A stretch of 64,000 bases of DNA from Anaerolineae bacterium (lineage in GTDB: Bacteria; Chloroflexota; Anaerolineae; Aggregatilineales; J027): positions 1-64,000 of the forward strand of contig JAIOHL010000177.1 in NCBI GenBank assembly GCA_019913005.1. Reading direction: 5' to 3'. Under the pieces are notes generated by a model. That model saw nothing but the letters and a program-made list of their open reading frames with translations, was not told the origin of the DNA and did no database searches. Position numbers and translations under genes: made by a program. Of this stretch, positions 33,106 through 64,000 are shown piece after piece. Within the stretch, counting starts at the first letter, position 1. Each line of letters opens with the position of its first letter.

Positions 33106-33147
33106 GCCGTTTGACCTTGCGTCGCTGCATCGTCAAACGGCTTTTTT
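33106..33147 (+). terminator. Rho-independent terminator/attenuator upstream of parM-like gene
   Basis: A perfect 10-bp stem (33106-33115 with 33132-33141), 16-base loop and six T's lie 44 bases before the parM-like start codon. No convincing gene precedes it inside the element, so it may attenuate the par operon or isolate it from readthrough across the left boundary. Confidence 0.8.
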
Positions 33148-33190
33148 GCATCCAAAAAGTCTGACACCCAATACAATCGAGGAGAAAAAT

Positions 33191-34261
33191 ATGTCCAAGA
33201 ACAGACTTTCAAATGGCAACAATCGTCCAGATGCCTTAACAGGCGTACCCCTTGTAATAGGGCTTGATATCGGCTATGGGGTGGTCAAAGCGGTCACACC
33301 AGATGCCACTATCACTTTCCCATCAGTGATGGGTCACGCCCGCGAGATTAAATTCCGTCAAGATGACATCACTGCGAAATATCCGGGCGATCAGTTGATT
33401 GATGATGAAGGGGCATGGTTTATAGGGGATTTAGCCCTGACCCAACTTCCACCCGGTGAGTTACTTCGCCTGCGTGGTCGGACTGCGAATGAAGCCACTA
33501 TTGGCAATATATTCCGTTTGCGGCTTGCTAAAGCGGTCATCGGAAAATTGCTTATGGGAATGAAGAATGGGGATATTGCCCATATCCGCATCGCAACTGG
33601 TTTACCCGTCGATCACATGCGCGACACCTCGGCTTTGAAAATGGCACTGCTTGGTCAGCATCTCATCAAAACAGACTCATCTGAAGTCATTGCCAATGTT
33701 ACGGAAGTCAGGGTTATGCCACAACCGTATGGCACAATTTACGCTTCTACACTAACGGAAACCGGTGATGTGAATCGCCATCATACCTATACCCGAACGG
33801 GGGTCTGCGATATTGGCACCTATACAGTGGACCTTACCCTTGATGACGATGGGGAGTACATAGACGCTGAAAGTGGCAGCGTTGAAAGTGGTGTTTTTAC
33901 AGCACAAGAACGTATCGCCTCAGCCCTAGAACGTGATTATCGCCAGAAGATGCCCTATAGAGTTATCGAAAGCGTTTTGCGAACAGGCGAGTTTAGGGCT
34001 TTTGGTGAACCAGTGGATTACAGTGCCGAAGTTGAAGAGGCCCTTGCTCCCCTTAGAAGTGCCACCCTTAATCTTTTAGGGGACAAGTGGAAATCGGGGA
34101 CAACGGTTGATGTAATCTTCCTTTCTGGGGGTGGGGCAGAGCTTGTGCGTGAAGTAGTAACAGAGGCTTATCCCCAAACTAGATTGGTTCGAGAGCCACA
34201 ACTTGCCAATGCGCGTGGTTATCTGAACTACGCCCTATTTACAGAACGTCACCCCAGTTAA
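33191..34261 (+). CDS. ParM/StbA-like actin-family plasmid segregation ATPase
   Basis: A 356-residue actin-like ATPase. Phosphate-1 is in IGLDIGYGVVKAV (about 16-28), phosphate-2 in CDIGTYTVDLTL (about 215), and the adenosine motif in VIFLSGGGAELV (about 318). Such proteins polymerise into filaments that push plasmid copies apart. GAGGAG precedes the ATG at 33191. The next gene, 56 bases downstream, looks like its DNA-binding partner. Its presence suggests the element can exist as, or derives from, a low-copy plasmid. Confidence 0.82.
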   Translation: MSKNRLSNGNNRPDALTGVPLVIGLDIGYGVVKAVTPDATITFPSVMGHAREIKFRQDDITAKYPGDQLIDDEGAWFIGDLALTQLPPGELLRLRGRTANEATIGNIFRLRLAKAVIGKLLMGMKNGDIAHIRIATGLPVDHMRDTSALKMALLGQHLIKTDSSEVIANVTEVRVMPQPYGTIYASTLTETGDVNRHHTYTRTGVCDIGTYTVDLTLDDDGEYIDAESGSVESGVFTAQERIASALERDYRQKMPYRVIESVLRTGEFRAFGEPVDYSAEVEEALAPLRSATLNLLGDKWKSGTTVDVIFLSGGGAELVREVVTEAYPQTRLVREPQLANARGYLNYALFTERHPS

Positions 34262-34317
34262 ACAAGGTTGAATGGGAAAATCGTTCAACACGGTTAAATC
34301 CAAAGGAGCAAGTCATT

Positions 34318-34761
34318 ATGCCAATAGCAAATCCGATGGCTCGAACCAGCAAAATCATAGGATTCAAAGCCTTTCATGATTGCGATAGTGATATTTTGGA
34401 ATGGTGGGATTCAATGCCAAATGGCGAACGAAGCCATATCCTACGAACTCTCATTCGGTCTTACCTAACGGGGCAAATTGTGACCCAATCTGTAAAAGAC
34501 GATCCCCTTGCATTCGCAAACAGCGTGCAACTTGCCCAACTACGAACGGAAACCCTGAAGATCCGCGACGCTATGCAGGGAATTCCTAACTATCTCGAAC
34601 AGCTGATAGCCAAATCACAACAGGCACTTTCTCCAGCAGCAAAATTTCAATCTCAACCATTGCAAGCCAATTTCTCAGCTGGGGATGATCTTTCGCAATC
34701 GTCCTTGAGTCACTCGGAAGCAGACCGTCGCGCTGCAAGAATTAAACAGACAAAGTGGTAG
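34318..34761 (+). CDS. ParR-like DNA-binding partner, hypothetical
   Basis: A 147-residue protein. Residues 20-55 (DSDILEWWDSMPNGERSHIL, then RTLIRSYLTG) resemble a ribbon-helix-helix unit as in ParR/StbB adaptors, followed by a helical segment and a polar, Ser/Gln-rich tail. AAAGGAG precedes the start. Position directly after the ParM-like gene supports the role of a centromere-binding adaptor; no direct family match could be made. Confidence 0.6.
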   Translation: MPIANPMARTSKIIGFKAFHDCDSDILEWWDSMPNGERSHILRTLIRSYLTGQIVTQSVKDDPLAFANSVQLAQLRTETLKIRDAMQGIPNYLEQLIAKSQQALSPAAKFQSQPLQANFSAGDDLSQSSLSHSEADRRAARIKQTKW

Positions 34762-34767
34762 AACACG

Positions 34768-35460
34768 ATGCCAAAACCAACGATAATCCCGAACAGGCAC
34801 TATCAAAAACCGAACAAGGGTGGGCAGCGCGGCTTGAAAAAACTGCTGAAATATGTCAGCCACCGGGAATCACCCGACCATCGTCCGCTGCCGCTGGCGG
34901 AGCGCTGGACAGATGTCGGTTTGGGGGCGAACTGGCGTGCGGTGTATGAACACTGCTCCCAACTGGCCGGTCCATATGTACTGGCCCACCATCTGGTCAT
35001 CTCGCCCGCACCGGATCTCATGGCTTTGGTACCAGAAATCCAACGAGCCGAGTTGGTACGGGAAGTCACCGAACGGGTGATTGAGACGTGGCATCTGGAA
35101 CGTGGTTTGGATATCCCTGAGTATTCGTATGTCCTGCATGATCGAGATACCAACGATCAGCGGGGTCTCCAACACTTGCATTCGCATGTTTTTGTGGCAG
35201 GCACGATTGAAAATAGCGCTGGGGAGCGGGAATCCCATCGGGTCAAACGTGAGCAGGTGTGTACCGATCGCGGGGGCTTGCAGCGTTCAGACAATCTCCA
35301 TCACATCGCCCGACAGGAATTTGAGGCCTTGCTGGATCGCACGCTGGGACGCGACTGGCGGCGTCTACGCGAAGTGGAACCAGTCGAACCCCTGCGGGAG
35401 GTGTCGTTGGAGCAGTATCTGGGTCTCGACACACTACCGACGTTGGAGATCGAGCGGTGA
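34768..35460 (+). CDS. Small HUH-type relaxase/mobilisation protein
   Basis: A 230-residue protein with relaxase-like motifs: a possible catalytic Tyr near the N terminus in LKKLLKYVSHRES (about residue 29), HHLVISPAP (about 74), and the HUH metal site in LQHLHSHVFVAG (about 135). The family nicks DNA at oriT or at a rolling-circle origin. It is short compared with conjugative relaxases, and no coupling protein or mating-pore genes are visible, so the element would need a helper for transfer. It begins 6 bases after the ParR-like gene. The sequence just downstream (35461-35773) holds strong dyads that could be its target. Local GC is higher than in the par genes. Confidence 0.65.
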   Translation: MPKPTIIPNRHYQKPNKGGQRGLKKLLKYVSHRESPDHRPLPLAERWTDVGLGANWRAVYEHCSQLAGPYVLAHHLVISPAPDLMALVPEIQRAELVREVTERVIETWHLERGLDIPEYSYVLHDRDTNDQRGLQHLHSHVFVAGTIENSAGERESHRVKREQVCTDRGGLQRSDNLHHIARQEFEALLDRTLGRDWRRLREVEPVEPLREVSLEQYLGLDTLPTLEIER

Positions 35461-35773
35461 GTCCCGGTGTTTTTTTCGAACCGACCCGGTCGGTTGCGCC
35501 TGAGGCGAGCGTCCTCGAGACGCACGCGGTGTCCGGGCCAGTAAACCCCTATGGTGGTTCACCCACTGGGGTGGCGCCCGGACACCCTACCCGATCCGCC
35601 GGATGGGTAGCGAGTTTAATGCCAACTCGCCCCTCACACGCCGGGGGGGCTGGGCACGCCTCGTGGTCGAGTCGTCCGGGGGCACGTGATCCACCCATCG
35701 CCCATGTCTTGCCGCGCTTGGTAAATGGAACGATCAACCCATCCACATCATTTGGAGGTAAAGGAGCAACAGC
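35461..35773. other. Non-coding region with nested inverted repeats, candidate oriT/origin
   Basis: No gene is supported in this 313-bp GC-rich stretch. It contains a palindrome (AACCGAC at 35479-35485, GTCGGTT at 35489-35495) and a larger dyad (35529-35538 with 35576-35585, perfect 10 bp) that encloses a second pairing of CCCC with GGGG. Placement between the relaxase-like gene and an RHH gene suits an origin of transfer or replication. Confidence 0.5.
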
Positions 35774-36184
35774 ATGTCCAACAAGAGCACGCTCATCTAT
35801 GACAATCGTCTGAACATCCAAGTCACCCACGCCATGCACGAGCGGCTGGCGCAACTGGCAACACTACGCGGTGTGTCCAAAGCTGAACTGGCCCGGGAAG
35901 CCCTGCGTGCCTTCATGGATCAACAGGAGGATCTGGTCGGTAGTCGCAAGTTTTTTGCCAAATCCTTCCAGCGCCGCCTGGATCATGTGGATTGGCAGTT
36001 CTCGGTGATGTTTCGGTTGGTGGCACATCTGATGGCGGTGGTTCTCAAAGCCCAAACGGGCAAAAAACCTGCCGAGGAAGACATTATGGGCTACATGCTC
36101 ACCTATGCGATGGCGGATGACTGGCAGTCCCCTTTGCATGAAGCCCATCACAAACGCCAGAAGCACGAACCGCCAGTCGAATAA
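35774..36184 (+). CDS. Ribbon-helix-helix (CopG-like) protein
   Basis: A 136-residue protein. The N-terminal RHH (about 10-55) reads RLNIQVTHAMHERLAQLATL and then GVSKAELAREALRAFM. The C-terminal part is helical and ends in a His/Lys-rich tail. In small mobilisable plasmids an RHH protein next to the relaxase acts as relaxosome accessory (MobC-like) or as copy-number repressor; both fit here. GGAGGTAAAGGAG precedes the start. Confidence 0.75.
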   Translation: MSNKSTLIYDNRLNIQVTHAMHERLAQLATLRGVSKAELAREALRAFMDQQEDLVGSRKFFAKSFQRRLDHVDWQFSVMFRLVAHLMAVVLKAQTGKKPAEEDIMGYMLTYAMADDWQSPLHEAHHKRQKHEPPVE

Positions 36185-36199
36185 CCTACTGGCGGCGCG

Positions 36200-36250
36200 G
36201 CGGGGTGATGTATCCCAATAGTTTGGCAACTTCAGGATACATCATCCCGC
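36200..36250. repeat. 16-bp inverted repeat (stem-loop) before the primase gene
   Basis: Arms at 36200-36215 and 36235-36250 pair over 16 bp with one G-T pair; the loop is 19 bases. No T tract follows, so it is not a standard terminator. It may be an operator for the RHH protein or part of a replication origin. Confidence 0.7.
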
Positions 36251-36326
36251 TGGCCCTGTCCACTTTCCGTTTTACCGCCTGTTTCACTGCGATAGTTCAG
36301 AAGAAAAACGAAGAAGGAGCCTTCCC

Positions 36327-37097
36327 ATGAATACCATGACTCAGCCCGCCATCGTGCAAGCCGCCCAATCCGAAACCCTGTTACAAGCCGCGTTGCGCTA
36401 TGCCGCTCTTGGCTTCAGCATCATTCCCCTCCAAGGCAAACGACCCGCGATCAACTCATGGCTGCCTTACCGCAACCGGGCCGCCAGTCCCGACATCATC
36501 CGGCGCTGGCAGCAGGGAGGGCTGCTGGAGAATATTGGGGTGGTGTGTGGCCCAGTGTCCAAAAATCTGGTGGTGTTGGATTTGGATGGCGAAGACGGGT
36601 ATCCGACCTTTGCCGCGACCTTTCCCCAGTTGGCTGAAACCTATACGGTGGCGACTGGAGGAGGCATTGGACGCCATGTCTACTTTCGACCCACGACCCT
36701 GTCGCCCTCGGTGCGTGCCATGAACACCCCCATTGGGCATGTCGAGCTGCGCGGGGATGGCTATCAGATCGTCCTACCCCCGAGCATCCACCCTGAGACC
36801 CACCAACCCTATCGGGTGTGGCTGCCCCACGACATATTGCAGCCCGCTGATTTGCAGGCTGTGGTGGCATGGGTCGAGGGTTTCCGCCCCAAACCCATGC
36901 CGACCGTCTGGCAGCCGCCCCATCTACCCCCAGTGGCGGTACGACCAGCCTCAATCCGCGTGTCCTCGAAGCGTTGGCTGAATATTTTCGAGCCAAAGGC
37001 TATGGGGTGCATGGGGAGTGGCTGCACGGCCCGTGTGTCTACCCGGAGCGCCATCGGCATGGGGATCAAAATCCGAGCTTCGGCTTCAACACCTTGA
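36327..37097 (+). CDS. Bifunctional primase-polymerase, N-terminal part (frameshifted gene)
   Basis: The first about 200 residues form a prim-pol domain of the kind found in plasmid and phage replication proteins. Visible are GFSIIPLQGKRP near residue 32, the catalytic acidic motif LVVLDLDGEDGYPTF (about 85-100), TGGGIGRHVYFRP (about 112) and VELRGDGYQIVLPPS (about 138). Around 36930-36950 homology leaves this frame: after GFRPKPMP the sequence becomes unlike the family, and the zinc-binding and later domains continue in the frame ending at 37948. GAAGGAG precedes the start. The protein would prime replication of the element if the frames were joined. Confidence 0.75.
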   Translation: MNTMTQPAIVQAAQSETLLQAALRYAALGFSIIPLQGKRPAINSWLPYRNRAASPDIIRRWQQGGLLENIGVVCGPVSKNLVVLDLDGEDGYPTFAATFPQLAETYTVATGGGIGRHVYFRPTTLSPSVRAMNTPIGHVELRGDGYQIVLPPSIHPETHQPYRVWLPHDILQPADLQAVVAWVEGFRPKPMPTVWQPPHLPPVAVRPASIRVSSKRWLNIFEPKAMGCMGSGCTARVSTRSAIGMGIKIRASASTP

Positions 37098-37948
37098 CCG
37101 GTTATGGACATTGTTTTGTGTGTGGAACGCTGTTGGCAAAAGACCTGTGTGCCCAGGTGGGAGTGCATCCAGCCGCGTTGGGTGGTTTATTTGAGTCAAC
37201 CCCACGTCCACTGCGACCCCGGCCCAACCGCCCGTCATCACAGCCGCCACCCACGCCATCTATCACCCCAAACGCTCTCGAACAACCCTCGGCTCCACCG
37301 CCACCCTCTGTTCCACTGTCTGGTGAATCCCTACACGGAGCACTCCCGCGTTGGTTGGAAACCTATGTGCAGTGGGCCAGCGCCGCGGGTAACCAGACGC
37401 CGGTCATCTTCCATCAAGCGGCTGGGTTGTGGTTACTCTCACTTGCCATTGGGCGGCGTCTATTTGGTGAAGCACCTTGGGGTAGCAAGATATTCCCCAA
37501 TCTCTATCTCATGTTCGTGGCTGGCACAACCTACTATCGCAAATCCACCGCCTACAAACTCGCCGAACGCATTGCTCGTGAAGCCATTCCGCATATGCTC
37601 ATGCCCACACCCGGTTCGCCGGAACGCTTTCAGGAGGCGCTGGCCGGCCAACTGCCCAGCAATTTTGACAAACTCACCCCAACCCAGCAGGCCCGGCTGC
37701 GCCAAGCTTTACCTTTTGCTTCCCAGCGCGGTCTGCTCAAGGATGAGGTGGCGGGTTTATTCGGCACCATCAACAAACGCGACTACATGGTCGGTATGAA
37801 AGACCTGCTGATGGAACTCTACGACTGCCCGGATTACTCTGATAAAGAGACTCAAGCCGGGGTGACCATTGTCGAGAACGCCGCTTTGTCTATTTTGGGT
37901 GTGACTACCCCGGCGGGCTTGTCCACCGCTGTAAGTGATGCCGATTGA
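36869..37948 (+). CDS. Replication protein, zinc-binding and helicase-like middle part
   Basis: Continuation of the primase gene in another frame. After about residue 28 it reads VLEALAEYFRAKGYG and then a CHC2-like zinc motif (GPCVYPERHRHGD, HCFVCGTLL, about 50-85). A Pro-rich linker (about 108-150) leads to a DUF3987-like region (LFVAGTTYYRKSTAY replaces a Walker A; RGLLKDEVAGLF). The frame stops at a TGA (37946-37948) within SDAD*LVRF, where the family would have a Trp; the frame then continues open to 38620. There is no ribosome-binding site at 36869, so expression needs a frameshift or the gene is dead. Confidence 0.65.
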   Translation: MGRGFPPQTHADRLAAAPSTPSGGTTSLNPRVLEALAEYFRAKGYGVHGEWLHGPCVYPERHRHGDQNPSFGFNTLTGYGHCFVCGTLLAKDLCAQVGVHPAALGGLFESTPRPLRPRPNRPSSQPPPTPSITPNALEQPSAPPPPSVPLSGESLHGALPRWLETYVQWASAAGNQTPVIFHQAAGLWLLSLAIGRRLFGEAPWGSKIFPNLYLMFVAGTTYYRKSTAYKLAERIAREAIPHMLMPTPGSPERFQEALAGQLPSNFDKLTPTQQARLRQALPFASQRGLLKDEVAGLFGTINKRDYMVGMKDLLMELYDCPDYSDKETQAGVTIVENAALSILGVTTPAGLSTAVSDAD

Positions 37949-37951
37949 CTG

Positions 37952-38620
37952 GTGCGGTTTGCGTTATTGACGCCTGAACCGGATTACACCGAGCGTCAGC
38001 CCTCAGCGACATTCCCTAAACCCCCGGCTTTGTTGGTTGAAGGCCTGCGCCGCCTGCATGAACGGCTGCCGCCACCACAACAAACCGAACATGGTTTGAC
38101 TCCACCTCTCGCCCTTGAGATGCAGGTACAGTGTTGGCCGGAATGCCAAGCCTACTCGGAGCGCCTACGCCGCCACTGTGCCCCCGATCAGGATACCGAA
38201 CTGGATGAGCGCCTTAAGGGTGTCTATGGACGTTTGCACATCCAAGCCTTTAAGTTAGCTACGCTGGTCGCAGCACTGGATTGGATCGAGACCGAGGCCG
38301 CTGTGCCCACCCTGACCGCCACCCATTGGCAGATGGGGGAGACCTTAGCCGAAACATGGCGTTTGAGTGCCCATCGCCTGTTGACCCAGATGGATCGGGG
38401 TGGGGAGGCCATCACCGAACGTCGTCAACAAGATGCGTTACTAAATGCCATTCGACGAGCGGGTGAGGATGGTAGCAACCTGCGCACGCTCTATCGTGCC
38501 CTACACCTCACGGCTCAACGTGCCCGTCAATTGGCCCAAGACCTTGTCCGCGCCGGACTGGTGATGGAGCAGCGGTTAGATGGTGCTGAGTGGTATGTTG
38601 CTGCCGAGCATACCCACTAG
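37952..38620 (+). pseudogene. Replication protein, C-terminal part after in-frame TGA
   Basis: This is the same reading frame as the preceding fragment, separated by one TGA. It encodes the C-terminal helical lid of DUF3987-like replication proteins (RFALLTPEPDYTERQP; LHIQAFKLATLVAALDW) and ends in a winged-helix-like segment (LYRALHLTAQRARQLAQDLVRAGLV). A single G-to-A change (TGG to TGA) would explain the stop. No independent start with a ribosome-binding site is visible. Confidence 0.6.
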
Positions 38621-52311: not shown

Positions 52312-53901
52312 ATGGTTCGAGCAGTTATATGGTGTGCAGTATCGTCTCATGCCCAACATCAACCGGACAAAATAAGTTTACCACAGCAAGAGGCTGATGC
52401 TCGTGCGGTTGCTGAGATTAATGGGTGGGATATTGTAGATTTGATGATGGTGTCGGGGCATAGTCGGCGTTACATTGATTTCCATGAATTAGCAGATCAT
52501 GCCGCAAAAGAAGGTGTAAATGCGTTCTACAAGCTTCAAAACCACTGGGAAAATCGGGACTTTGATATTCTCATCGTCCGTGATGGTGATAGGTTTGCTC
52601 GCACTCAAGCACTCCATGCTTATATCACAGAACGCACCATTGCAATTGGTGCTCGGATTTACTCTTTACATGATGGTTGGATTGACGATACCAATTATCG
52701 TCTATGGATTGCGATGTCAGGTTATAAATCTGCAGGAGATATTGATCGGCTAATTAAGCAGCGGGATTCCGCGATGACTGGCCGTGCCAAACGAGGACTT
52801 CCAGTTAGTAGTCGGATCCCAATTTCTCATAAACTCATCCGAGATCAAGTGACAGGCAAGGCCCTACGTCTTGAAGTCAATGAAGATCTAAGCCGCTTAT
52901 GGGATGATTTAGCAATACTCATAGTTGAGGGGGTCGCATGGGAAAAAATCGAGTATGAACTCTTTCACCGTTTTGGTCACATAGATCTGAATGGCGACCC
53001 CTACTATCCAGGCTTCATGTACAAACTTATCATGAAGCCATGTTTTTGGGGACACATCGCACGCTATCACCATAGCGCAAGGAGTAAGAATGGTTATCGA
53101 CTAGGATCGTGGATCTACGAAATTGGTGAACCTGTTCCTGAAGGCGCACTGGTTTTTAGAAATACCCACCCAGCGGTATGGACAGGCGATACAGCCGATT
53201 TTGTCAAAGCGGAATTACTGCGGAGGTCGAATGCGGTTCGTGGCAACGCCGATCCACAGTTTACCCATCGCTTTAGCGGACTTGGTATATGCGCCGAATG
53301 CGGGAGCTTCTTATCAACCTTTGTAAAAAAGGATTATCGTGGGTTAATCTGCCCTGCGGCAAAATCGAAGTCTTTGCGGTTACCAAAGTGTAGCAATGGG
53401 AAAGTCATCAACGAGAAAAAGGTCATCGCTTTGATGAACGCCTATCTACATCAGATGATTCAGCATGATACAACCAACGTCTTCGATTCCTTAGCCGATG
53501 ACCGTAAAAAACTAGATAGTCGTATCGAAGTCTTGACCACTGAAATAGAAAAGGAGGAGTTACATGCCAAAATGCTCATTCGTGATCGATTAACTGTTGG
53601 AGACGAGATCCGTCATCTTTACGACGAAGAAATGACGCAAATCAATATGCGACTAAAAAGCATGAAGGCAACCAGTACGATGCTCAAGACTCAATTACAG
53701 AGTCTCCAAAGAGAAACTACGTCGCAGCATACAACGCTAGGGGAATTAGCTGAACTCACACTCGAAGCCTTTTGGCAACAAGAAAGTCGGCTCATCAATC
53801 AGGTGCTCCATCGCCTTATGGGGAAAAATCGATTGCTTTTGCTACAAGGTCAAATTATTGGAGTAGTTGAAGTCAATCGTCGGCAACGCAGCCATACTTA
53901 G
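52312..53901 (+). CDS. Large serine recombinase (integrase)
   Basis: A 529-residue site-specific recombinase. The resolvase catalytic domain (about 1-140) has the Ser in AVSSHAQ (about residue 9-10) and the Arg-rich region RDGDRFART. A recombinase domain (about 150-310) follows. A zinc-ribbon domain has CAECG near 327 and a second Cys pair about 30-40 residues on (LICPAAK, LPKC). A coiled coil spans about 385-470. Large serine recombinases integrate phages and mobile elements between unlike att sites. The gene ends 100 bp before the right 77-bp repeat, the expected place for the element's integrase. The ribosome-binding site is weak (AGAGAG). Confidence 0.88.
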   Translation: MVRAVIWCAVSSHAQHQPDKISLPQQEADARAVAEINGWDIVDLMMVSGHSRRYIDFHELADHAAKEGVNAFYKLQNHWENRDFDILIVRDGDRFARTQALHAYITERTIAIGARIYSLHDGWIDDTNYRLWIAMSGYKSAGDIDRLIKQRDSAMTGRAKRGLPVSSRIPISHKLIRDQVTGKALRLEVNEDLSRLWDDLAILIVEGVAWEKIEYELFHRFGHIDLNGDPYYPGFMYKLIMKPCFWGHIARYHHSARSKNGYRLGSWIYEIGEPVPEGALVFRNTHPAVWTGDTADFVKAELLRRSNAVRGNADPQFTHRFSGLGICAECGSFLSTFVKKDYRGLICPAAKSKSLRLPKCSNGKVINEKKVIALMNAYLHQMIQHDTTNVFDSLADDRKKLDSRIEVLTTEIEKEELHAKMLIRDRLTVGDEIRHLYDEEMTQINMRLKSMKATSTMLKTQLQSLQRETTSQHTTLGELAELTLEAFWQQESRLINQVLHRLMGKNRLLLLQGQIIGVVEVNRRQRSHT

Positions 53902-54932: not shown

Positions 54933-55278
54933 TGAAAACCTCTCCTTAATATCCGAACCCTAATTTGCTGCCATGCAAATCCACCAGTGGATTAAAATTT
55001 GGCCTTGAGTAACTTTTTTATAAACAAGGCAGCGTAAACACCTTCAATATTTTAATATAGAGCTATTTTTGCTGAGAAAAGTTCGGCGAATTTGATTGTA
55101 GAGCTACATTTCAAAATCACTATTATTATACACTATCCCATTCACAAAATGATTGGTCAGAATTGCTCATTTTAAGCGAATTAGGGGGATAATTCATACC
55201 TTGCCGCTTCTATAAGACGCACTATAATCTAAAGCGTCGTAAAAAAGTAATTAATTAAATAGTCAAGGAGCTTTGACA
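54933..55278. other. AT-rich intergenic region between divergent pdxS and BMP genes
   Basis: The 346-bp gap holds no supported gene. It contains the promoter of the BMP gene at its right end; the remaining AT-rich part probably carries the pdxS promoter, which I could not place exactly. Confidence 0.5.
55201..55238 (+). promoter_or_regulatory. Sigma-70-type promoter of the BMP gene with overlapping dyad
   Basis: A -35 box TTGCCG (55201-55206) and a perfect -10 box TATAAT (55223-55228) are 16 bases apart. An inverted repeat GACGC (55216-55220) / GCGTC (55234-55238) brackets the -10 box and may be an operator. The ATG lies 51 bases downstream of the -10 box. Confidence 0.7.
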
Positions 55279-57282
55279 ATGCGACGCTTTTTCTCTAGTG
55301 TAATTGCTGTCACGCTTGTGATAGCCATTGCAGTAATCGGCCTTACCCCAACGTTTGCTGCCGATGATAGTACCCTGAATTCGCGCACAGCCCGTCAAGC
55401 CCCGCTCAAAATTGGTCTTGTGACCGACGTAGGGCAGGTAGACGATGGTAGTTTTAATGAAAGTGCGTGGAATGGCGTGCAAATGGCTGGTGAAGAACTC
55501 GGCGCTGAGTTTGATTACATCGAAACCCAAGATGCCGCCGATTATGCCACCAACATCGCCGAATTTGCTGACAATGGTTACAACGTGATCGTGACTGTCG
55601 GTTTCGCCCTCACACAGGCAACCGTTGAAGCCGCCGCCAACTATCCCGATGTTCATTTCATCGGTGTTGACCAATTCCAAGGTGAAGCGGTTCCTAATGT
55701 GACTGGTCTAATCTTCCCCGAAGATAAATCCGGTTTCCTCGCTGGTGTGCTGGCTGCCGGCCTTACTCAATCCGGTACGATTGCCGCCGTACTGGGCACC
55801 GACCAAGTTCCCCCAGTCGTGGCTTTCAATGAAGGCTATCGCTCTGGCGCGGAATGGGGTGCTGAACAACTCGGCAAAGAACTCAGCATCATCAGCACTT
55901 ATCACCCCGGTGGTTTAGATGTGGCGTTCACTGACCCCGCGTGGGGTGCTGCGACGGCCCGTCAGGCCCTTGATCAGGGTGCAGACGTGGTATTTGCCGC
56001 TGGTGGTAAGACCGGTAATGGTGGCTTGATTGAAGTCGCTGGTGCTGTCACCGCTCCCGGTGAAGTGCCCTTCTGCATCGGCGTTGACACCGACCAGTGG
56101 CTAACTGTACCCGAAGCGCACCCGTGCCTCGTTTCCAGCGCCACCAAACTGATTGATGTCAGTCTTGTGACTCTCATCAAAGCCTATGCTGAAGGTGCAA
56201 TCCCCAGCGGCAACTATCTTGGCGAAGTTGGCCTCGCGGACTTCCATGACCTCGCGGCTTCGGTTCCGGCTGAAGTGCAGGCGTTGATTAAACAAGCCGA
56301 AAATGGTCTGCGGACTGGCGCGGTTTTGACCTGCTATGGCCTCGATCTAAGTGAACTGAGCATTGGTCTGGTTACAGACGTGGGTCAGGTAGACGATGGC
56401 AGCTTCAATGAAAGCTCATGGAACGGCGTGCTGGCGGTTAGCCGCTGCGGTGCCACCGTTGACTTCATCGAAACCCAAGATGCCGCCGACTATGCGACCA
56501 ACATTGCTGAATTTGCCGAACAAGGCGTGGACATCATCGTGACCGTTGGCTTCGCTCTCGGTCAGGCAACTGCCGAAGCCGCTGCTTCCTATCCCGACAT
56601 CCGTTTTATCGGCGTTGACCAATTCCAAGGCGCAGTTACCCCCGGCGTCACGGGCCTCATTTTCCCTGAAGATCAGGCGGGTTATCTGGCGGGTGTTTTG
56701 GCTGCTCGTCTAAACCAGACTGGCACGATTGCGGCGGTTTTGGGGACTGACCAAGTTCCACCCGTTGTCGCGTTCGCTGAGGGCTATCGCCTCGGTGCGT
56801 TGGCAACCAACCCCGACATCAACGTCCTGCTGACTTACCATCCGGGTGGTTTAGATGTGGCGTTCACTGACCCCGCGTGGGGTGCTGCGACGGCCCGCCA
56901 AGCGCTCGATCAAGGTGCGGACGTGGTATTTGCCGCTGGCGGTAAGACCGGTAATGGCGGCTTGATTGAGGTCGCTGGTGCGGTTTCCACCCCCGGTGGC
57001 GCTCCCTTCTGCATTGGTGTAGACACGGATCAATGGTATACCGTGCCTGAAGCTCATTCCTGCTTGATTTCCAGCGCGATGAAGCTGTTGGATGCTGGCG
57101 TGGCGACCCTAATTCTCCAATTTGCCAACGGCACCATTGCGGACGGCAACTTTGTGGGTCAGGTGGGTCTCGCGCCCTTCCACGATCTGGCTGGTTCCGT
57201 TGCCCCCGAAGTGCAGGCTGAACTGGAACAACTGGCGATTGATCTGGCCGCTGGTGAAGTGACGACTGGCTACGGTAGCTAA
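55279..57282 (+). CDS. Tandemly duplicated BMP-family substrate-binding protein
   Basis: A 667-residue exported protein made of two fused BMP/PnrA-type (basic membrane protein, nucleoside-binding) domains. The signal peptide is residues 1-28 (ending PTFAA). Domain 1 (about 45-345) and domain 2 (about 357-660) both start IGLVTDVGQVDDGSFNES and share VTVGFAL, FIGVDQFQGE/A, GLIFPED, AAVLGTDQVPPVVAF and GADVVFAAGGKTGNGGLIE. The period is about 312 residues. A single BMP domain is the normal length. No ABC transporter genes lie next to it. There is no lipobox Cys, so it is probably a soluble or surface-released binder. AAGGAG precedes the ATG at 55279. Confidence 0.88.
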   Translation: MRRFFSSVIAVTLVIAIAVIGLTPTFAADDSTLNSRTARQAPLKIGLVTDVGQVDDGSFNESAWNGVQMAGEELGAEFDYIETQDAADYATNIAEFADNGYNVIVTVGFALTQATVEAAANYPDVHFIGVDQFQGEAVPNVTGLIFPEDKSGFLAGVLAAGLTQSGTIAAVLGTDQVPPVVAFNEGYRSGAEWGAEQLGKELSIISTYHPGGLDVAFTDPAWGAATARQALDQGADVVFAAGGKTGNGGLIEVAGAVTAPGEVPFCIGVDTDQWLTVPEAHPCLVSSATKLIDVSLVTLIKAYAEGAIPSGNYLGEVGLADFHDLAASVPAEVQALIKQAENGLRTGAVLTCYGLDLSELSIGLVTDVGQVDDGSFNESSWNGVLAVSRCGATVDFIETQDAADYATNIAEFAEQGVDIIVTVGFALGQATAEAAASYPDIRFIGVDQFQGAVTPGVTGLIFPEDQAGYLAGVLAARLNQTGTIAAVLGTDQVPPVVAFAEGYRLGALATNPDINVLLTYHPGGLDVAFTDPAWGAATARQALDQGADVVFAAGGKTGNGGLIEVAGAVSTPGGAPFCIGVDTDQWYTVPEAHSCLISSAMKLLDAGVATLILQFANGTIADGNFVGQVGLAPFHDLAGSVAPEVQAELEQLAIDLAAGEVTTGYGS

Positions 57283-57348: not shown

Positions 57349-57433
57349 GTATCATTTCAATGGTTTTCAGAAATAAAAACCTGCTCAATCCCATTGGGTG
57401 AGCAGGTAGAATAGTTTTTGATGTTACAAAAAG

Positions 57434-57475
57434 TCGGGGTGCGCGGGATCGAACCGCGGACCTCTGCGTCGCCAA
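57434..57475 (-). other. tRNA-Pro-like 3' half (attachment-site remnant)
   Basis: Read on the minus strand this contains the 3' anticodon-stem strand CGCAG, a 5-base variable loop, a perfect T arm (CGCGG-TTCGATC-CCGCG), the acceptor strand CACCCCG and discriminator A, the 3' end typical of tRNA-Pro. No 5' half (expected to begin CGGGGTG) is present upstream on that strand, and the anticodon loop reads TTGGCGA. It is the duplicated tRNA 3' end left by an integrating element; the integrase remnant begins 14 bases away. Confidence 0.7.
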
Positions 57476-57489
57476 GACACCCTGATAGG

Positions 57490-57702
57490 TTATCGTGCCT
57501 TTCGGATAGGGATGATTTTTGAGGGTTGGATGTCATCCTCCTCAGGTTTCACCACTAGCTCGCGGATGGCTTGCTCGGCATGTTCGTAATCATTGGGCCA
57601 ATAGTTCTCCATCGTGGTCATGGGGTTTTCATGGCCGAGAGCTGGGCCACAACAGTGACCGCGCCCCGTGCATCTGCCGACTGGAATCCATTCCGGTGTC
57701 AC
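57490..57702 (-). pseudogene. Tyrosine recombinase (integrase) C-terminal remnant
   Basis: About 40 recognisable residues, LGHENPMTTMENYWPNDYEHAEQAIREL after a few unrelated ones, match the end of phage-type integrases: the LGH with catalytic His and the catalytic Tyr of ENYW. The sequence upstream of LGH changes frame (a VVAQ-like helix appears in another frame), so the N-terminal part is lost or shifted. The stop is 14 bases from the tRNA 3' half, the usual integrase/att arrangement. The island to the right therefore entered by tRNA integration but has lost its integrase. Confidence 0.7.
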
Positions 57703-57765: not shown

Positions 57766-58454
57766 ATGGACGCGGCCAATAGCGGGCCGTTATCGCCGCA
57801 AGCCACCCACCGAGAAACAACACGCGGCACAGGCCAAGCGCAAAGCGGATGAACTCAAGGCGCGTACCTGTACCCGTGCGGAGACGTTCAGTATTTCAAG
57901 CGCGACCTGAGTGCTGGATTGTGTGAGTTTTGCTGGTTAGGGGTCAAGACAGCGGAGTGGGCCAAGCGGGTGCTGGCGGACGGCTGTGTCATCTTGGACA
58001 TGGAAACCACTGGGTTGTACGACGCCGAGCCAGTCGAGATTGCCGTCCTAGACCACACCGGGGCGCATGGTCGAGCCTGATCCTGACACAGGCGTTGCAG
58101 CAGTCTATATTCATAGTATCCGGCCCGAAGATTTGGCGAATGCGTCGTCCTTCGGTGAGATTTACCCGGCACTTTATGAGGCGCTGCATGGCAAACATGT
58201 GGTGATCTACAACAAGGCTTTTGATCTTCCCATCCTCCGGGCCACCCGAAAGGAATGGGACTGTGCGCCGTTTGAATTTGAGAAGTCGTCGTGCGCGATG
58301 CGGTGGTATGCCCAGTTTTGCGGGGATTGAAGTGATTACTGGGGGTCGTATCGGTGGCAGCCGCGCCGGGTGGTGACCACTTGGCGCAGGGGATGCACGG
58401 GCGACGTTGGAAGTGCTGCGCGAGATGGTGGCGAGTTTGATCCAAGCGGAATAG
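57766..58454 (+). pseudogene. Zinc-ribbon DnaQ-like 3'-5' exonuclease, frameshifted pseudogene
   Basis: Homology can be followed through at least three frames. It starts with a basic N terminus (GRYRRKPPTEKQ) and a zinc ribbon (CTR-C, CEFC). Motif Exo I is VILDMETTGLYDAEPVEIAVLD (near 57990-58050). After a shift near 58060 comes HSIRPEDL with Exo II NKAFDLPIL (near 58210-58230). After a stop at 58330 comes the Exo III-like segment GDARATLEVLREM. Single-base changes near 57768, 57877 and 58060 and a further disruption around 58330 would restore the frame. It is a decayed phage or plasmid nuclease. Confidence 0.65.
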
Positions 58455-58476: not shown

Positions 58477-58620
58477 GTGTTGATTTGCAAGGCGTGTCGT
58501 CAGCCCATGACTAAGGCATTTGTTGAACCTCACTCCGAGCAGGCCAAGACCCACGGCAGGGGTAGGCAAAAAACCTATCGGATGGCCTTCTTTTGCATTT
58601 ACGGTCAAGCGCTGCCAATT
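58477..58620 (+). pseudogene. Small cysteine-containing ORF, 3' truncated at module junction
   Basis: A TTG-started frame reads LICKACRQPMTKAFVEPHSE and then KTYRMAFFCIYGQ, a Cys-x-x-Cys segment plus a later Cys as in small zinc-ribbon proteins. The recognisable part ends about where the convergent NTPase gene begins at 58619; beyond that the frame only mirrors the other strand. It is probably the 5' part of an older island gene cut when the NTPase module arrived. Confidence 0.4.
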
Positions 58621-61600
58621 ACAAAATTTCATCACCATAGACCAAATTACCAACATAGACCGTACAGGCATACAACCACTTTTCGAAATCGGGAATTTCA
58701 ATGGCTTTGAGAAACCCCCAAGCTAAAATCTTTTGTGAGATGAACATATTTCTGTTTTTGAGAGCAGCCACGACAAACAGAATCGCAGCAACGCCAAATA
58801 TGACATCAAAATTCTCCTGTCGTTTGGCAGAACCCAGACGTTGCCTTACTTTTAGTGGAATCTCGTCATCTCGCTGGATTTGAGCCACGAGTTGGTCATA
58901 GTGCTCCCCTAAATTAGTCGTATAGAGTAATATTCCATCGGTCAGCAAGTTCCAAAGCGCATCCCTACGTGGATTCTCTAGTTGATTCAGGTAAGGTTTC
59001 ATGGTCTGTATTGCTGTATAAATTCCCTCAGCGCTTTCTTTAGGAAGAATCATGTCGGCTAGCCGACTCGGCAATTGTGCAAGTCGACTGTCCTCTTGGC
59101 GCTTTAGGAATAGCTCTGTTAGCCTTTTTACCTGCTCGATACCCAAATCTAAAAACCCAAAAGCAAAAGCGCTCACCATACTGGCGGGCAGAACTGCATT
59201 CCGTAATGAAGAACCTGTGCTCAATTTTGAGACACCCCAATAACGTTCTTCATGTAAAAACTCTGTATCCATAATCTCCAGTACGACTGACTGGAGTGCA
59301 TCCCGGTCTATTTGCCCTCTAAAATTGATAATATTGCCAAAAGGCACGGTCATCATAACCGCCCATAAGCTCGCGGTAGGGATTTTGGGGTCAGTGGTTG
59401 GTTGATATAAATCGTCGAATCGATGTTGAAGCTTGTTTAAAGCGTGCGTGGTCGCTATTGGGTCATTAAAAAAGTGGGATGCCATCCCAATGAGAGCTAG
59501 GCCAATCGTCAAAAAATCATTGTAACCCTCGGCAGCTAACTTGTGTATGTAATCAGCAAATAGATCGACTTTTGTCGGTGCAAAACCAGCCGCCGCATCG
59601 ATATGCTTGAGTAGATAATCAAAAATTTCCTCACGGCCTTTTGCGCTCGTAAAGGCATATTCAAAATCTTCAAAATCAAAAAATATCTCACCCGTTGCTC
59701 CGCCAGCACTTCGAATAATAACCCGTATCCGTTTCACCAACAGGCGTAATATCAACCTACGTAAGGCACGAAGGCCTAGTTCTATGGGGCGCACATTGCT
59801 GACAAGCATCAACCGGTTGATAACTTGTCTCCATAGATTTTGGAGTAGAGGAATAACCTGTGTTTTGTCGCCTTCAAACCAGTAGTCAAACAACAAGAGC
59901 AAAAAGGAGCACCGAATGAACGTTTCGATATCCTGCTGGAAAGTGCGCACATGCCACAGTCGGATACGGTCAGCCAGATTCGTGATTAAGTTGGCAGCGA
60001 TTTGATGATCTTGTTTCCAAATCAGCTGAATATCCTGTACAACCAAATAACGCACCGTATCGCGGGGGTCGCGCAAGGCGAGGTTCAGGATATCTTCGAT
60101 TTTACAGTTGACGGCCAAATTCGCGGCCAGACGCGGGGCTAGGCTACTATGCTCATTCGAAGCGAACCACTTCAGCAGTACAGCATGGATTTGAGCCTTA
60201 TGAGTTGCATACTGCTGCGATAAAATACTCGAAAGCAATTCATATTGCATCGTGTCGTTGGTATAGCCTAGCGATTCAATTAAAGTATATTCCCCTTGCT
60301 TGAGCAGATCGACCAACAGGTTGCTCATACTTCCCCATAAAAATGGGGCTTCATTTAGGTATCGCATGTGCAGTCTGAAAAATGCCTGTCGATCCGCAGC
60401 AGTTTTGTATTGGTCAAACAGGTATTTACCAACAAAATAGTCGTAGAAATACTCGTAATGAAAACGGAGTTCATATCGGCTTGGCACACCAATAAATGCA
60501 AGCCAGCCCGTGCGCATTAGGCGTTGGACACGCGCATTTACGGTGGTCCCGTCTGTGTATTCAGTGGAGTCAATCACCAAAGCATCTAGGCTCCGATTGA
60601 CATCGACGTCTTCTACCCAAACACTCTGCAGCGTACTCTTGCTAAGTCCAGCACGTGGGAGTTTCCCTTCTGGCAAAAACTGCGGCACGATCCATTTCTG
60701 GAGAAACTCGAAATCCTCATGATAAAGATTGACCTCTTGATTGCTGATAAGGCCTTCAATAAGGCGTTCAATAATTTCGTCCGAACGCATCTCTTTAGGA
60801 ATTGGTTTGCCCTCAAAAGCCTGACACGTAAACCGCATCAACAAGGGTTCTTGCATTGCTCGCTGTAATGACTTATCCAAGTGCTCCAAGTCGGGTTCTG
60901 TTATCCGATAGTAGGCTGCATATTTGTCAAAGGCACGCACCAACTCACTCCCCTGATAAGGGGTCATGACGAAACTATCGTTTTCTGCCTTAATGAGGGT
61001 GTTATCTAAACCCTCTGGGAGGTGGGTCATGTAGTTATAACTCTTAAAACGCAGTTGGAGCACCTTGCTTTTGGCGTGCGTCCAAACCTGCGGACGAGTT
61101 GTCACCACCATGCGAATCGGCCCACCTACCGGAAACTCCAAAGCTAAATCGTTGACGCGATTGAATACCTGTAATGGATGATTGTTCTCATTCAAGCCGT
61201 CGATCAACAACACCAAGCGTTTATCCGCAAGGTGGGTAGTCAATATTTCACGAAGGAATCGGAGTGCTTGTGTCTCATCTTCCGATGCCGGGTTAAAATT
61301 AAATACTGGGTCCCATGCTGACAAAATGGTCTCGGCTAAACTGAGGTCAGGTTTCAAAATCGCGCCATCGAGCCACAACGTGATGGATTGCGAGTCGTGC
61401 TTGAGTACCGTTCGATAGTAATGGTAGATTAAGTTGGTCTTGCCCACGCCTGCATTTCCGGAAATTACCATGATTGGCTCTTTGGTATTCAGGAAGCTGT
61501 CTAAGAGCTGATTGAATTCATCTCTTTCGATGTAGGCTTGTTCGATATACTTCCCGGCAGCCGTCATGGTCTGTCGCTCAGTATATTCCTCACAGGCCAA

Positions 61601-62557
61601 GCGTAAATTCAATTCATTAATTGGACGTACTGCGGTTAGCGCCTGTTGTTTTCTTGCCAACTCGTGGTCATATAAATGCCGGAACATCGCAACCAAATCG
61701 CCTGAAACAGCCTTTGCCTCATTGGTTGCCAGCATAAAGTAGACAATCTCATCGTCTTCAACGTCTTCCGTATCTTTATCTCTAAATTCCTCATATACAC
61801 CTGTGTCGTCGCGGTAACGATCTCCGAGACGGCGCAGGTAATCGCCACTGATGATTAACGGATGTAACTCTAGGAGTCGGTTCTGTCTATCTCGAACATA
61901 GAAGTGGCCTAGTTCAAGGCGGCTCATCGTATCGAGTGAAATATCTTCAAGCCTTGGGTGTCGGATGCTCTTTTCTTGTCCTTTGTACACCTCTACTGTC
62001 AATCGGTTACCTTGGATCTCGTGGAGATACCATAATTCATAATGACGCAGAAAAACGAATTGTTCTAGGACACGGCGAAGCATTCTCTGTAATTCATCGG
62101 CTGCTGCTTCTAGGTCAATGCGTTTATCCTGTACATCATTGCTAAACCGCGCCATTTCAAGTAGCAATTGCCAAGTCTCTTGTTTGGGCGTGGCTTCGGC
62201 TTCATTTGTATCCCAATAAAGATCATAAAGTTCTGGCACAAACAAAAGGTCTTTGCGATTTTGATAGGCCTGCAAGGTCTTTTGGAGGAGATCAGCCCAA
62301 TACTTGGTGCGGGGTGTTTTGAGATAGTCTTGAATTCCTTTATTCAACTGCTCATTGTTGATGACTTCGGGCGGCTCGGCTAAATAACGCATGATGGCTG
62401 CAAAAGCAATCGCTCGAATGGTGAAATGGAAGGTCTGGACACATTCTAGACTGCGGGCACGAGCATCTTCAGTCGTCAATAAATGTTGATAGGCTAAGGC
62501 GATGGGATAAGGAAATTCTCGGAGAATAATTTCGTCAATATTCGTCAAGGAGTTCAT
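58619..62557 (-). CDS. STAND/NACHT-type NTPase, putative defence protein
   Basis: A 1312-residue multidomain protein. The N-terminal helical domain (about 1-190) and a small beta-rich region (about 190-260) precede the NTPase: Walker A MVISGNAGVGKTNLIYHY (about 363-380), Walker B LVLLIDGLNENN (about 445) and a sensor-like VVTTRPQVW (about 480), as in NACHT/STAND ATPases. A winged-helix-like part and a long alpha-helical repeat region (about 640-1230) follow, probably the sensor arm. The C terminus has one or two hydrophobic segments (VIFGVAAILFVVAAL) that could be membrane-active. It is divergent from the TIR-FGE gene across 271 bp, suggesting one two-gene system. The first ATG is used; the ribosome-binding site is AAGGAC-like. 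Confidence 0.82.
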   Translation of the reverse strand: MNSLTNIDEIILREFPYPIALAYQHLLTTEDARARSLECVQTFHFTIRAIAFAAIMRYLAEPPEVINNEQLNKGIQDYLKTPRTKYWADLLQKTLQAYQNRKDLLFVPELYDLYWDTNEAEATPKQETWQLLLEMARFSNDVQDKRIDLEAAADELQRMLRRVLEQFVFLRHYELWYLHEIQGNRLTVEVYKGQEKSIRHPRLEDISLDTMSRLELGHFYVRDRQNRLLELHPLIISGDYLRRLGDRYRDDTGVYEEFRDKDTEDVEDDEIVYFMLATNEAKAVSGDLVAMFRHLYDHELARKQQALTAVRPINELNLRLACEEYTERQTMTAAGKYIEQAYIERDEFNQLLDSFLNTKEPIMVISGNAGVGKTNLIYHYYRTVLKHDSQSITLWLDGAILKPDLSLAETILSAWDPVFNFNPASEDETQALRFLREILTTHLADKRLVLLIDGLNENNHPLQVFNRVNDLALEFPVGGPIRMVVTTRPQVWTHAKSKVLQLRFKSYNYMTHLPEGLDNTLIKAENDSFVMTPYQGSELVRAFDKYAAYYRITEPDLEHLDKSLQRAMQEPLLMRFTCQAFEGKPIPKEMRSDEIIERLIEGLISNQEVNLYHEDFEFLQKWIVPQFLPEGKLPRAGLSKSTLQSVWVEDVDVNRSLDALVIDSTEYTDGTTVNARVQRLMRTGWLAFIGVPSRYELRFHYEYFYDYFVGKYLFDQYKTAADRQAFFRLHMRYLNEAPFLWGSMSNLLVDLLKQGEYTLIESLGYTNDTMQYELLSSILSQQYATHKAQIHAVLLKWFASNEHSSLAPRLAANLAVNCKIEDILNLALRDPRDTVRYLVVQDIQLIWKQDHQIAANLITNLADRIRLWHVRTFQQDIETFIRCSFLLLLFDYWFEGDKTQVIPLLQNLWRQVINRLMLVSNVRPIELGLRALRRLILRLLVKRIRVIIRSAGGATGEIFFDFEDFEYAFTSAKGREEIFDYLLKHIDAAAGFAPTKVDLFADYIHKLAAEGYNDFLTIGLALIGMASHFFNDPIATTHALNKLQHRFDDLYQPTTDPKIPTASLWAVMMTVPFGNIINFRGQIDRDALQSVVLEIMDTEFLHEERYWGVSKLSTGSSLRNAVLPASMVSAFAFGFLDLGIEQVKRLTELFLKRQEDSRLAQLPSRLADMILPKESAEGIYTAIQTMKPYLNQLENPRRDALWNLLTDGILLYTTNLGEHYDQLVAQIQRDDEIPLKVRQRLGSAKRQENFDVIFGVAAILFVVAALKNRNMFISQKILAWGFLKAIEIPDFEKWLYACTVYVGNLVYGDEIL

Positions 62558-62828
62558 ATAAAGTCCTTCCCAAAAAAATGTTTTTCCAGAAGGCTATTTG
62601 TTTGAGTATAACGCATTGTTACAGGATGGGGTTTCTGACTTTTTGTTAGTTTTGTGGGTATGGTATTAAAATTACCTATGTAATCGAGCGAAGAATTTGA
62701 CAGTAGTTTGTGATCAATCCTAAAGATAGTGAACTCCATCACAGTTTTGCTGTACTTTACCGCACAGTTGAATTCACTGACCATCTTATTTCTTCTCTCG
62801 ATTGTGCTGTATCAGCGAGGAGATAGTT

Positions 62829-64000
62829 ATGATGGATTTGGAAAGTGTCTTTTTCAGTTACAGCCGCGCTGATCAAGCGATTGTTCAGCAATTCTACAGG
62901 GACCTGAAATTACATGGGATGCCGTCCATTTGGATGGATCTTGAAGAGATCGAAACTGGCGATAAATGGTGGATGCAAATTGAAACGGCTATTCATCAAT
63001 CCAAAGCGTTGATTTTGTTCGCCAGTCACCCATCCCTCATGTCTGCTCCGGTGGAAAAAGAATACTCCCTTGCTCACCATCTAGGGAAACCCATCATTGT
63101 GGTCATCCTCGATGATGTCGAGATAAGCCTCCTCCCAGAAATTTTGCAAGAATATGACATCAAGCTGAATGTTCGATGGGACGGCTATCCCACAACATTG
63201 AAAAAACTCGTCAAAGTATCTTCTTTACCGCGCTCCTACACCTTGCCACGCGAATTTAAATATGTGCCGGGTGGTACATTCACGATGGGGGCACCCACCG
63301 AAGAGCATGTTGTCTCGATTGAAGGTTTTTGGATGGCCCAAAACTCAGTCAGTGTAGCCGAATATGCCACATTCATCCGATCTGGGGGATATGACCAAGA
63401 TACCTTTTGGATCGAGGGTTCTCACGCATTAGCCGAGAACCATGTTCCCCGTTGGTTTTCTACCCTTGATCACTTCGAAGAATTTGCGCTCGATAAACCA
63501 TCACAGCCTATGCGGGGTGTGGCGTGGTATGAAGCAATGGCCTATTGTAAGTGGCTGTCGGTGATATCTGATCACCCATTTATTCTGCCGACCGAAGCAC
63601 AGTGGGAAAAAGCTGCCCGAGGCACTGACAAAAGACGATGGGCATTCGGGGATCATTGGAACGCTTCGTGTGCAGATGTAAAAATCGGTTCCACGCCTAA
63701 TTTAGAACCCAAGGACTGTGGTATCGCTGGTAGTGAAAGTTTCTTTGGATGCCAAGATATGGTGGGCCAAGTTTGGAACTGGACTCTATCAATCGAACTA
63801 CCGCTACCCTATATTCCAGATGGATCAAGAGAAGCGCTCATGCCGCAGGACTTTAAGGAACCACGCATTATTCGAGGAGGAAGCTGGCTTCGCCCGGTTG
63901 AAAAGGCTTATACCTATCATCGTGAAAGCCAGTTTCCATTGCCTGACTACTACCGACATGAAATCGGTTTTCGCTTGGTGACTCTACAAGACCCAGTTTA
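62829..64000 (+). CDS. TIR domain fused to FGE-sulfatase (SUMF1) domain, 3' end outside window
   Basis: The frame is open from the ATG at 62829 (after AGGAG) to the window end, about 390 residues. The TIR domain (about 5-135) has VFFSYSRADQAIVQQFY, GMPSIWMDLEEIETGDKWW and ALILFASHPSLMSAPVEKEY, where the Glu of VEKEY is the likely NADase residue. A formylglycine-generating-enzyme-like domain (about 148-388) has VPGGTFTMGAP, the GVAWYEAMAYCKWLS segment, LPTEAQWEKAARG, and RIIRGGSWLRP ... EIGFRLV. The Cys pair needed for FGE catalysis is not present where expected, so this fold is probably a recognition module. TIR enzymes in defence systems deplete NAD+ or make signal nucleotides. Confidence 0.85.
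   Translation, partial: MMDLESVFFSYSRADQAIVQQFYRDLKLHGMPSIWMDLEEIETGDKWWMQIETAIHQSKALILFASHPSLMSAPVEKEYSLAHHLGKPIIVVILDDVEISLLPEILQEYDIKLNVRWDGYPTTLKKLVKVSSLPRSYTLPREFKYVPGGTFTMGAPTEEHVVSIEGFWMAQNSVSVAEYATFIRSGGYDQDTFWIEGSHALAENHVPRWFSTLDHFEEFALDKPSQPMRGVAWYEAMAYCKWLSVISDHPFILPTEAQWEKAARGTDKRRWAFGDHWNASCADVKIGSTPNLEPKDCGIAGSESFFGCQDMVGQVWNWTLSIELPLPYIPDGSREALMPQDFKEPRIIRGGSWLRPVEKAYTYHRESQFPLPDYYRHEIGFRLVTLQDPV

Follow-up and report, generated by a model that had tools for sequence, protein, structure and literature searches.

Does the divergent gene pair near the right end of the 64,000-nucleotide window analysed here (Anaerolineae bacterium, contig JAIOHL010000177.1) encode one defence system, or do a STAND-type NTPase and a TIR protein fused to an FGE-fold domain merely share an island? 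The original prediction, whose open reading frames, coordinates, lengths and 271-bp divergent gap were all correct, took the pair for a candidate undescribed two-gene system. We arrive at a looser answer, in which the locus is a candidate horizontally acquired anti-invader (abortive-infection) module whose STAND switch recruits or triggers a neighbouring effector; of the readings that we weighed this is the likeliest, at somewhat short of an even chance. The sequence analysis itself shows the intact genes, their domains and conserved catalytic residues, the insertion in an island, the STAND family around the NTPase and the effector-type neighbours of two of its homologues.

An uncatalogued STAND family

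The NTPase is laid out as a docking-like N-terminal domain (residues 1-335), an NTPase region (about 340-640) and a long helical C-terminal region, with the motifs GNAGVGKT at 367, LVLLIDGLNEN at 448 and VVTTRPQ at 484. Both in this protein and in a five-protein alignment we find the P-loop GxxGxGKT, the Walker B motif hhhhDxhNE, the NACHT-like arginine motif and the helical C-terminal region that mark STAND proteins. Its predicted NACHT/STAND class is therefore upheld by the motifs, but Pfam sees the window protein as weakly AAA_16/NACHT-like, below the curated cut-offs, and the supposed hydrophobic C terminus comes down to one stretch near residue 1248. Two homologues, L153 and L196, do pass the NACHT cut-off of Pfam (35.5 bits each). 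At membership level the NTPase matches no Pfam, NCBIfam or PADLOC family, the same three collections revealed no known effector domain in residues 1-335, and a single-sequence model of the N terminus was uninformative (pLDDT 39).

No close relatives turned up in sampled genomes of the phylum and order or in plasmids, nor did an exact-peptide scan of one genome per species (84,980 species) return any, a result that excludes close relatives only; searches of plasmid, phage and viral collections likewise gave no relatives of the family. Other matches in Chloroflexota, mostly of kinase-NACHT type and 25-28% identical with the similarity confined to the NTPase, we count as general STAND relatives, and they have neither a TIR-FGE nor an NTPase-family neighbour. 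A profile of the N-terminal domain led to another Chloroflexota class, where L153 is a full-length homologue (24% identity), and a profile of both proteins led to three more in the window's own class (L195, L196 and L197) together with the partial L198. The five full-length proteins align end to end, the homologues being 21-24% identical to the window protein, which within the reach of these tools appears to be the founding member of an uncatalogued five-protein family.

The N-terminal domain also occurs outside STAND proteins, where it is joined to a cyclic-nucleotide-binding domain (L155, L156), to TPR and zinc ribbons (L093) or to other tails (L154, L203, L204). When eleven copies were aligned, the motif YRN(K/R)...HG was present in all six from non-STAND proteins and in none of the five from STAND proteins. 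Motifs of the RN...HG type are the signature pattern of HEPN RNases, and although Pfam found no HEPN domain in the copies scanned, this pattern suggests that the N-terminal domain is HEPN-like. The motif has been lost in every STAND copy, and a docking role therefore fits. The cyclic-nucleotide-binding proteins L155 and L156 (genomes G097 and G065) retain YRN...KHG intact and are possible cyclic-nucleotide-controlled HEPN-like proteins.

Neighbours of the NTPase homologues

TIR-FGE is not a neighbour of any of the four full-length homologues, and TIR-FGE fusions occur without a relevant STAND neighbour in three other Anaerolineae (L106, L108, L113), so the strict pair is not conserved. Homologues of either gene regularly found without the other and outside islands are what the original prediction had named as refuting it; for the strict pair this refutation holds, and a fixed two-gene system is not supported. 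A looser pairing survives in part. Upstream of L153, 73 bp away and on the same strand, lies a gene for a 264-aa TIR protein (TIR_2, 7.5e-9) that matches the PADLOC ThsB profile at 6.5e-39 and keeps the catalytic-type Glu. Upstream of L196, at 71 bp and again on the same strand, a 308-aa CHAT protease-like protein (CHAT, 2.6e-10) keeps both catalytic motifs, HFAGHG (His) and LNAC (Cys). The same-strand gene 352 bp upstream of L197 encodes a 212-aa protein with a winged-helix-like N-terminal part and a moderately hydrophobic C-terminal stretch, for which we found no Pfam match and recognised no effector; the type I restriction-modification genes HsdM and HsdR stand 3-7 kb from L197. The N-terminal part of this protein resembles the CHAT protein in its C-terminal part (pairwise E 0.006; 28% over 81 aa), and the C terminus of the L153 TIR protein resembles both by eye only. 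The contig of L195 ends upstream of the gene, leaving L153, L196 and L197 as the readable upstream flanks.

A hydrolase-like gene follows directly downstream of L195 (7 bp), L196 (11-bp overlap) and L197 (12 bp), an alpha/beta hydrolase by Pfam in the latter two and by eye in the first, and could encode one more effector or be a partner in a conserved operon. Taken together, these neighbourhoods suggest, from a small sample, a wider theme of a STAND protein with an exchangeable neighbouring effector. About 230 bp upstream of the L153-adjacent TIR gene there is also a gene for an RRXRR-HNH protein (IscB-like; L153:12407-13696).

The TIR-FGE protein

The fusion of a TIR to an FGE-sulfatase domain was confirmed by Pfam (Table 1). 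Its putative catalytic residue, Glu78, is invariant in three further TIR-FGE proteins, and the loss of this Glu that the original prediction had named as a possible refutation is not seen. We interpreted the FGE and TIR rows among the structural matches of an AlphaFold model (12 sequences, pLDDT 70.5), which pairs with FGE-fold structures, the Treponema variable protein TvpA included, at Z 21-22 and with SPARTA TIR domains, the sole TIR structures among the VIA-align matches listed, at Z 13.4-13.7. By sequence and model, the domain has both the TIR fold and the catalytic Glu, and NADase activity is predicted. The match of this TIR domain to the PADLOC ThsB profiles is weak (1.2e-5).

Cysteines occur only at positions 240, 281, 297 and 308, with none after RGGSW; because there is no Cys beyond residue 308 the FGE active-site Cys pair is absent, and by its residues the domain is not a formylglycine-generating enzyme. 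In fold and in its conserved RGGSW...GFR C terminus it is similar to the FGE/C-type-lectin targets, such as TvpA, that are diversified by diversity-generating retroelements and, in multicellular bacteria, linked with TIR or STAND (PMC10907252). Unlike these, it is not a present target: a search for a template repeat in its own genome (7.6 Mb, 365 contigs, 96% complete) found only the gene itself, and no reverse transcriptase lies nearby. A reverse transcriptase resembling those of diversity-generating retroelements, with the motifs IGNLTSQ and YMDD, is encoded elsewhere in the genome (G000:C69:41634-42338, L040).

Acquisition of the island

The pair lies in a 7.3-kb island, about 57480-64752, that is missing from four congeners, and neither gene was found in the corresponding congener regions. 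With 45-47% G+C in the genes and 36.5% in the gap, against 52-57% in both flanks and the adjoining decayed pieces, the pair looks like a single acquired unit, and its frames are intact across 5.1 kb while the adjoining genes are broken. Good Shine-Dalgarno sequences for both genes are found in the gap, the best TIR-FGE start being the one in Table 1, with AGGAG a few bases 5' of its ATG; a promoter scan of the 271 bp gave no more sites than chance. A 76-aa reading frame there (62554-62784, minus strand), overlapping the NTPase start as ATGA, looks non-coding (35.5% G+C, A+T-rich, flat codon positions).

The island had been described as tRNA-marked. No whole tRNA gene was found in the window, and the mark is instead a 3' fragment of tRNA-Pro at the left boundary, with an intact tRNA-Pro(TGG) at the same site in the congener G303, whose synteny stops at 57479 within that gene. 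Integration into a tRNA 3' end usually leaves such a remainder, with only the 3' part of the tRNA in place. On contig C48 of the source genome, G000, an intact tRNA-Pro is followed by tRNA-Gly in the same order as in G303. To the left, the gene for a PnrA-like protein is present in the four congeners at 86-96% identity. In this PnrA-like (Bmp) substrate-binding protein (window 55273-57282) a single chain contains the sequence twice in tandem, the two copies sharing about 72% identity at the DNA level. On the right side, alignment with the four congeners resumes in all of them only from 64752, a place that in G304 lies about 120 kb from the tRNA site. On contig C292 the sequence from the other side of that place is joined to an apparent tyrosine recombinase and to a 3' fragment resembling tRNA-Pro. 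The simplest reading of the junctions (G000:C77 57480 and 64752, C48:1807, C292:5751) is two integrations, with element ends at tRNA-Pro-like sites, plus an inversion of about 120 kb relative to G304; the pattern may also be a misassembly.

The original mention of decayed phage genes was fair: there is a broken exonuclease gene and, beside the tRNA fragment, a remnant whose motif suggests the C terminus of an integrase. Just right of the window, a frame-broken remnant has a sub-threshold Pfam match to DUF4062 (E 0.23) and shares 48% identity with the N-terminal end of a plasmid-encoded Candidatus Chlorohelix protein annotated as SUMF1/FGE. Its DUF4062 identity is tentative. Since DUF4062 is reported as a TIR-like NADase (PMC13174449), the island may once have held another effector-FGE gene. 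Overall, horizontal acquisition of the island and a role in defence or conflict, as first proposed, are well supported.

Table 1. Features of the locus and its surroundings (window positions unless stated otherwise)
Feature	Position	Strand	Remarks
STAND/NACHT-like NTPase gene	58619-62557	-	1312 aa, intact open reading frame
Divergent intergenic region	62558-62828		271 bp, 36.5% G+C
TIR-FGE gene	62829-64016	+	395 aa, intact; stop at contig position 64016, 16 nt past the window end
TIR domain	residues 1-128 of TIR-FGE		Pfam TIR_2, 3.7e-18
Putative catalytic Glu78 codon	63060-63062	+	PVEKEY; aligns with the SARM1 catalytic Glu (VHKE)
FGE/C-type-lectin-fold domain	residues about 137-390 of TIR-FGE		Pfam FGE-sulfatase, 1.2e-35
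tRNA-Pro 3' fragment	57429-57479	-	left attachment boundary; 90% identical to intact tRNA-Pro(TGG) of G000:C48
Putative tyrosine-recombinase C-terminal remnant	57490-57702	-	motif GHENPMTTMENYW beside tRNA fragment; without Pfam match
Decayed DnaQ-type exonuclease gene	57888-58330	+	frame broken; RNase_T 5.6e-5 on fragment 58067-58330
DUF4062-like remnant (tentative)	contig C77 64237-64752 (L002:7237-7752)		frame-broken; just right of window

A proposed STAND switch with a neighbouring effector

How might such a module work? We suggest that the long helical C-terminal region of the NTPase would sense an invader-derived trigger and that ATP binding would lead to NTPase assembly. The N-terminal domain, its HEPN-like RN...HG motif lost, would then be a docking platform rather than an effector, and the killing enzyme would be supplied in trans by the adjoining gene, which is TIR-FGE here and at other loci encodes a TIR resembling ThsB or a protein of CHAT protease-like type. 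Once clustered, the TIR domain would become active, so that NAD+ would be cleaved and the infected cell stopped, and the FGE domain would be a C-type-lectin-fold binding module whose target is either the invader or the assembled STAND protein. Sensing, docking, joint action, NAD+ loss and defence are what we infer here, going throughout from neighbourhood to joint action.

Several observations weigh against this scheme. Clear effectors stand in two of the three readable upstream flanks, a tiny sample, and no effector was found upstream of the partial L198. The partners of the homologues are upstream, co-directional and carry a winged-helix-like part, whereas the window partner lacks such a part and is divergent, an order seen at the window alone among the family loci. 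The downstream hydrolase-like gene of three homologues is missing here, and blastp (E<=1) between the two window proteins revealed no shared adaptor, the same comparison giving short chance-level matches only for L153 and L197 and their partners. The solitary TIR-FGE fusions count against it as well.

These last two points belong equally to the reading that we place second, a serious contender with a somewhat smaller chance, in which the island holds two independent defence genes: a self-contained TIR-FGE protein whose FGE domain senses and whose TIR domain kills, and an Avs-like STAND protein with an unrecognised N-terminal effector, their divergence being accidental. A TIR-NACHT-FGE protein in one polypeptide (L116) and the want of a TIR-FGE neighbour at any NTPase homologue favour it too, and the third, decayed conflict gene just downstream suggests an island that collects such genes. 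However, it leaves aside the effector-type genes beside two of the three homologues with a readable flank, the discrete low-G+C unit that the pair forms, and the fact that every STAND copy has lost the HEPN-like motif, which is contrary to an autonomous N-terminal RNase.

An unlikely alternative is a relay in which the TIR protein makes a cyclic ADP-ribose-type messenger for the STAND protein, or for some other effector, in the way that ThsB signals to ThsA in Thoeris. The ThsB-profile match of the L153-adjacent TIR, strong where that of the window TIR is weak, is consistent with it, but in the island no gene for ThsA, SIR2 or SLOG was recognised, Pfam and PADLOC showed no known messenger-binding domain in the NTPase, and at L196 a CHAT protein takes the place of the TIR. 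Equally improbable is a reading other than defence, with the genes serving signalling or programmed death in a Chloroflexota lineage of filamentous, multicellular habit, or being cargo of the island that has no function at present. In its favour, multicellular bacteria are enriched in FGS (FGE-fold), TIR and STAND domains (PMC7159879, PMC8195603) and the surrounding element is decayed; against it, the locus is patchy across families, absent from congeners and inserted in an island, with both frames intact beside broken neighbours.

A bolder form of the preferred STAND-plus-effector scheme, which we regard as doubtful, is that these proteins form an unrecognised family of bacterial NLR-like receptors. 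The STAND protein would then bring no more than a docking domain of HEPN-like origin, and adjoining genes, exchanged from one locus to another, would provide the lethal effectors (TIR, TIR-lectin, CHAT, perhaps hydrolases). In most studied bacterial STAND receptors the executioner is fused at the N terminus. If true, this family would be the bacterial counterpart of APAF-1 and other receptors whose executioners (caspases for APAF-1) are separate proteins to be recruited, and it would offer a simple two-gene test of executioner recruitment. TIR-FGE itself raises the question of what an undiversified FGE/lectin-fold module recognises.

Comparison with known systems

Combinations of FGS, STAND and TIR domains are known from bacterial conflict systems, including a STAND-FGS gene beside a TIR gene (PMC7159879, PMC8195603, PMC10907252), and Kaur, Burroughs, Iyer and Aravind have proposed FGS as an intracellular invader sensor (PMC7159879, PMC8195603). 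The window locus has the same three ingredients. In the described systems, however, FGS sits on the STAND protein and the partners share the adaptor bDLD3 or EAD (PMC8195603), whereas here it sits on the TIR protein, beside an uncatalogued STAND whose N-terminal domain is a different one, and no shared adaptor was found. Considering that such combinations have already been described (PMC8195603), the claim of an undescribed system holds for the NTPase family and the wiring, and not for the ingredients. What is new, as far as our tools show, is the NTPase family, the placing of FGS on TIR rather than STAND, and a single STAND family whose neighbour is exchanged between TIR-FGE, TIR and CHAT; a search of the open-licence literature found no description of this arrangement.

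Similar to the window NTPase, Avs2, Avs4 and bacterial NACHT proteins are large STAND NTPases with a long helical C-terminal region. The PADLOC Avs2 match is confined to the NTPase region (1.6e-6 in the window protein, 6.5e-12 in L197), and the NCBIfam scores fall far below those for membership (Avs2, 20.4 bits vs 1000; Avs4, 14 vs 1500). No nuclease or other fused effector was recognised in the window NTPase, and it is the neighbouring genes that look like effectors. The locus recalls Thoeris in having a TIR protein in a two-gene unit, as does the ThsB-like TIR beside L153, but the partner is a STAND protein, and no ThsA was recognised in 57-65.7 kb. Likewise, the TIR domain is structurally similar to that of SPARTA (TIR-APAZ with a short prokaryotic Argonaute), yet the locus has neither APAZ nor an Argonaute.

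Other probable mobile DNA in the window

A large serine recombinase (Resolvase, zinc-ribbon recombinase) is encoded at 52312-53901, in low-G+C DNA left of the island and outside the congener alignments. Further left, a plasmid-like block at 33146-38620 is probably a second integrated element; it carries ParM-like and mobilisation-like genes, recognised by eye, together with genes for a Prim-Pol (PF09250, 2e-26) and a MarR-like helix-turn-helix protein.

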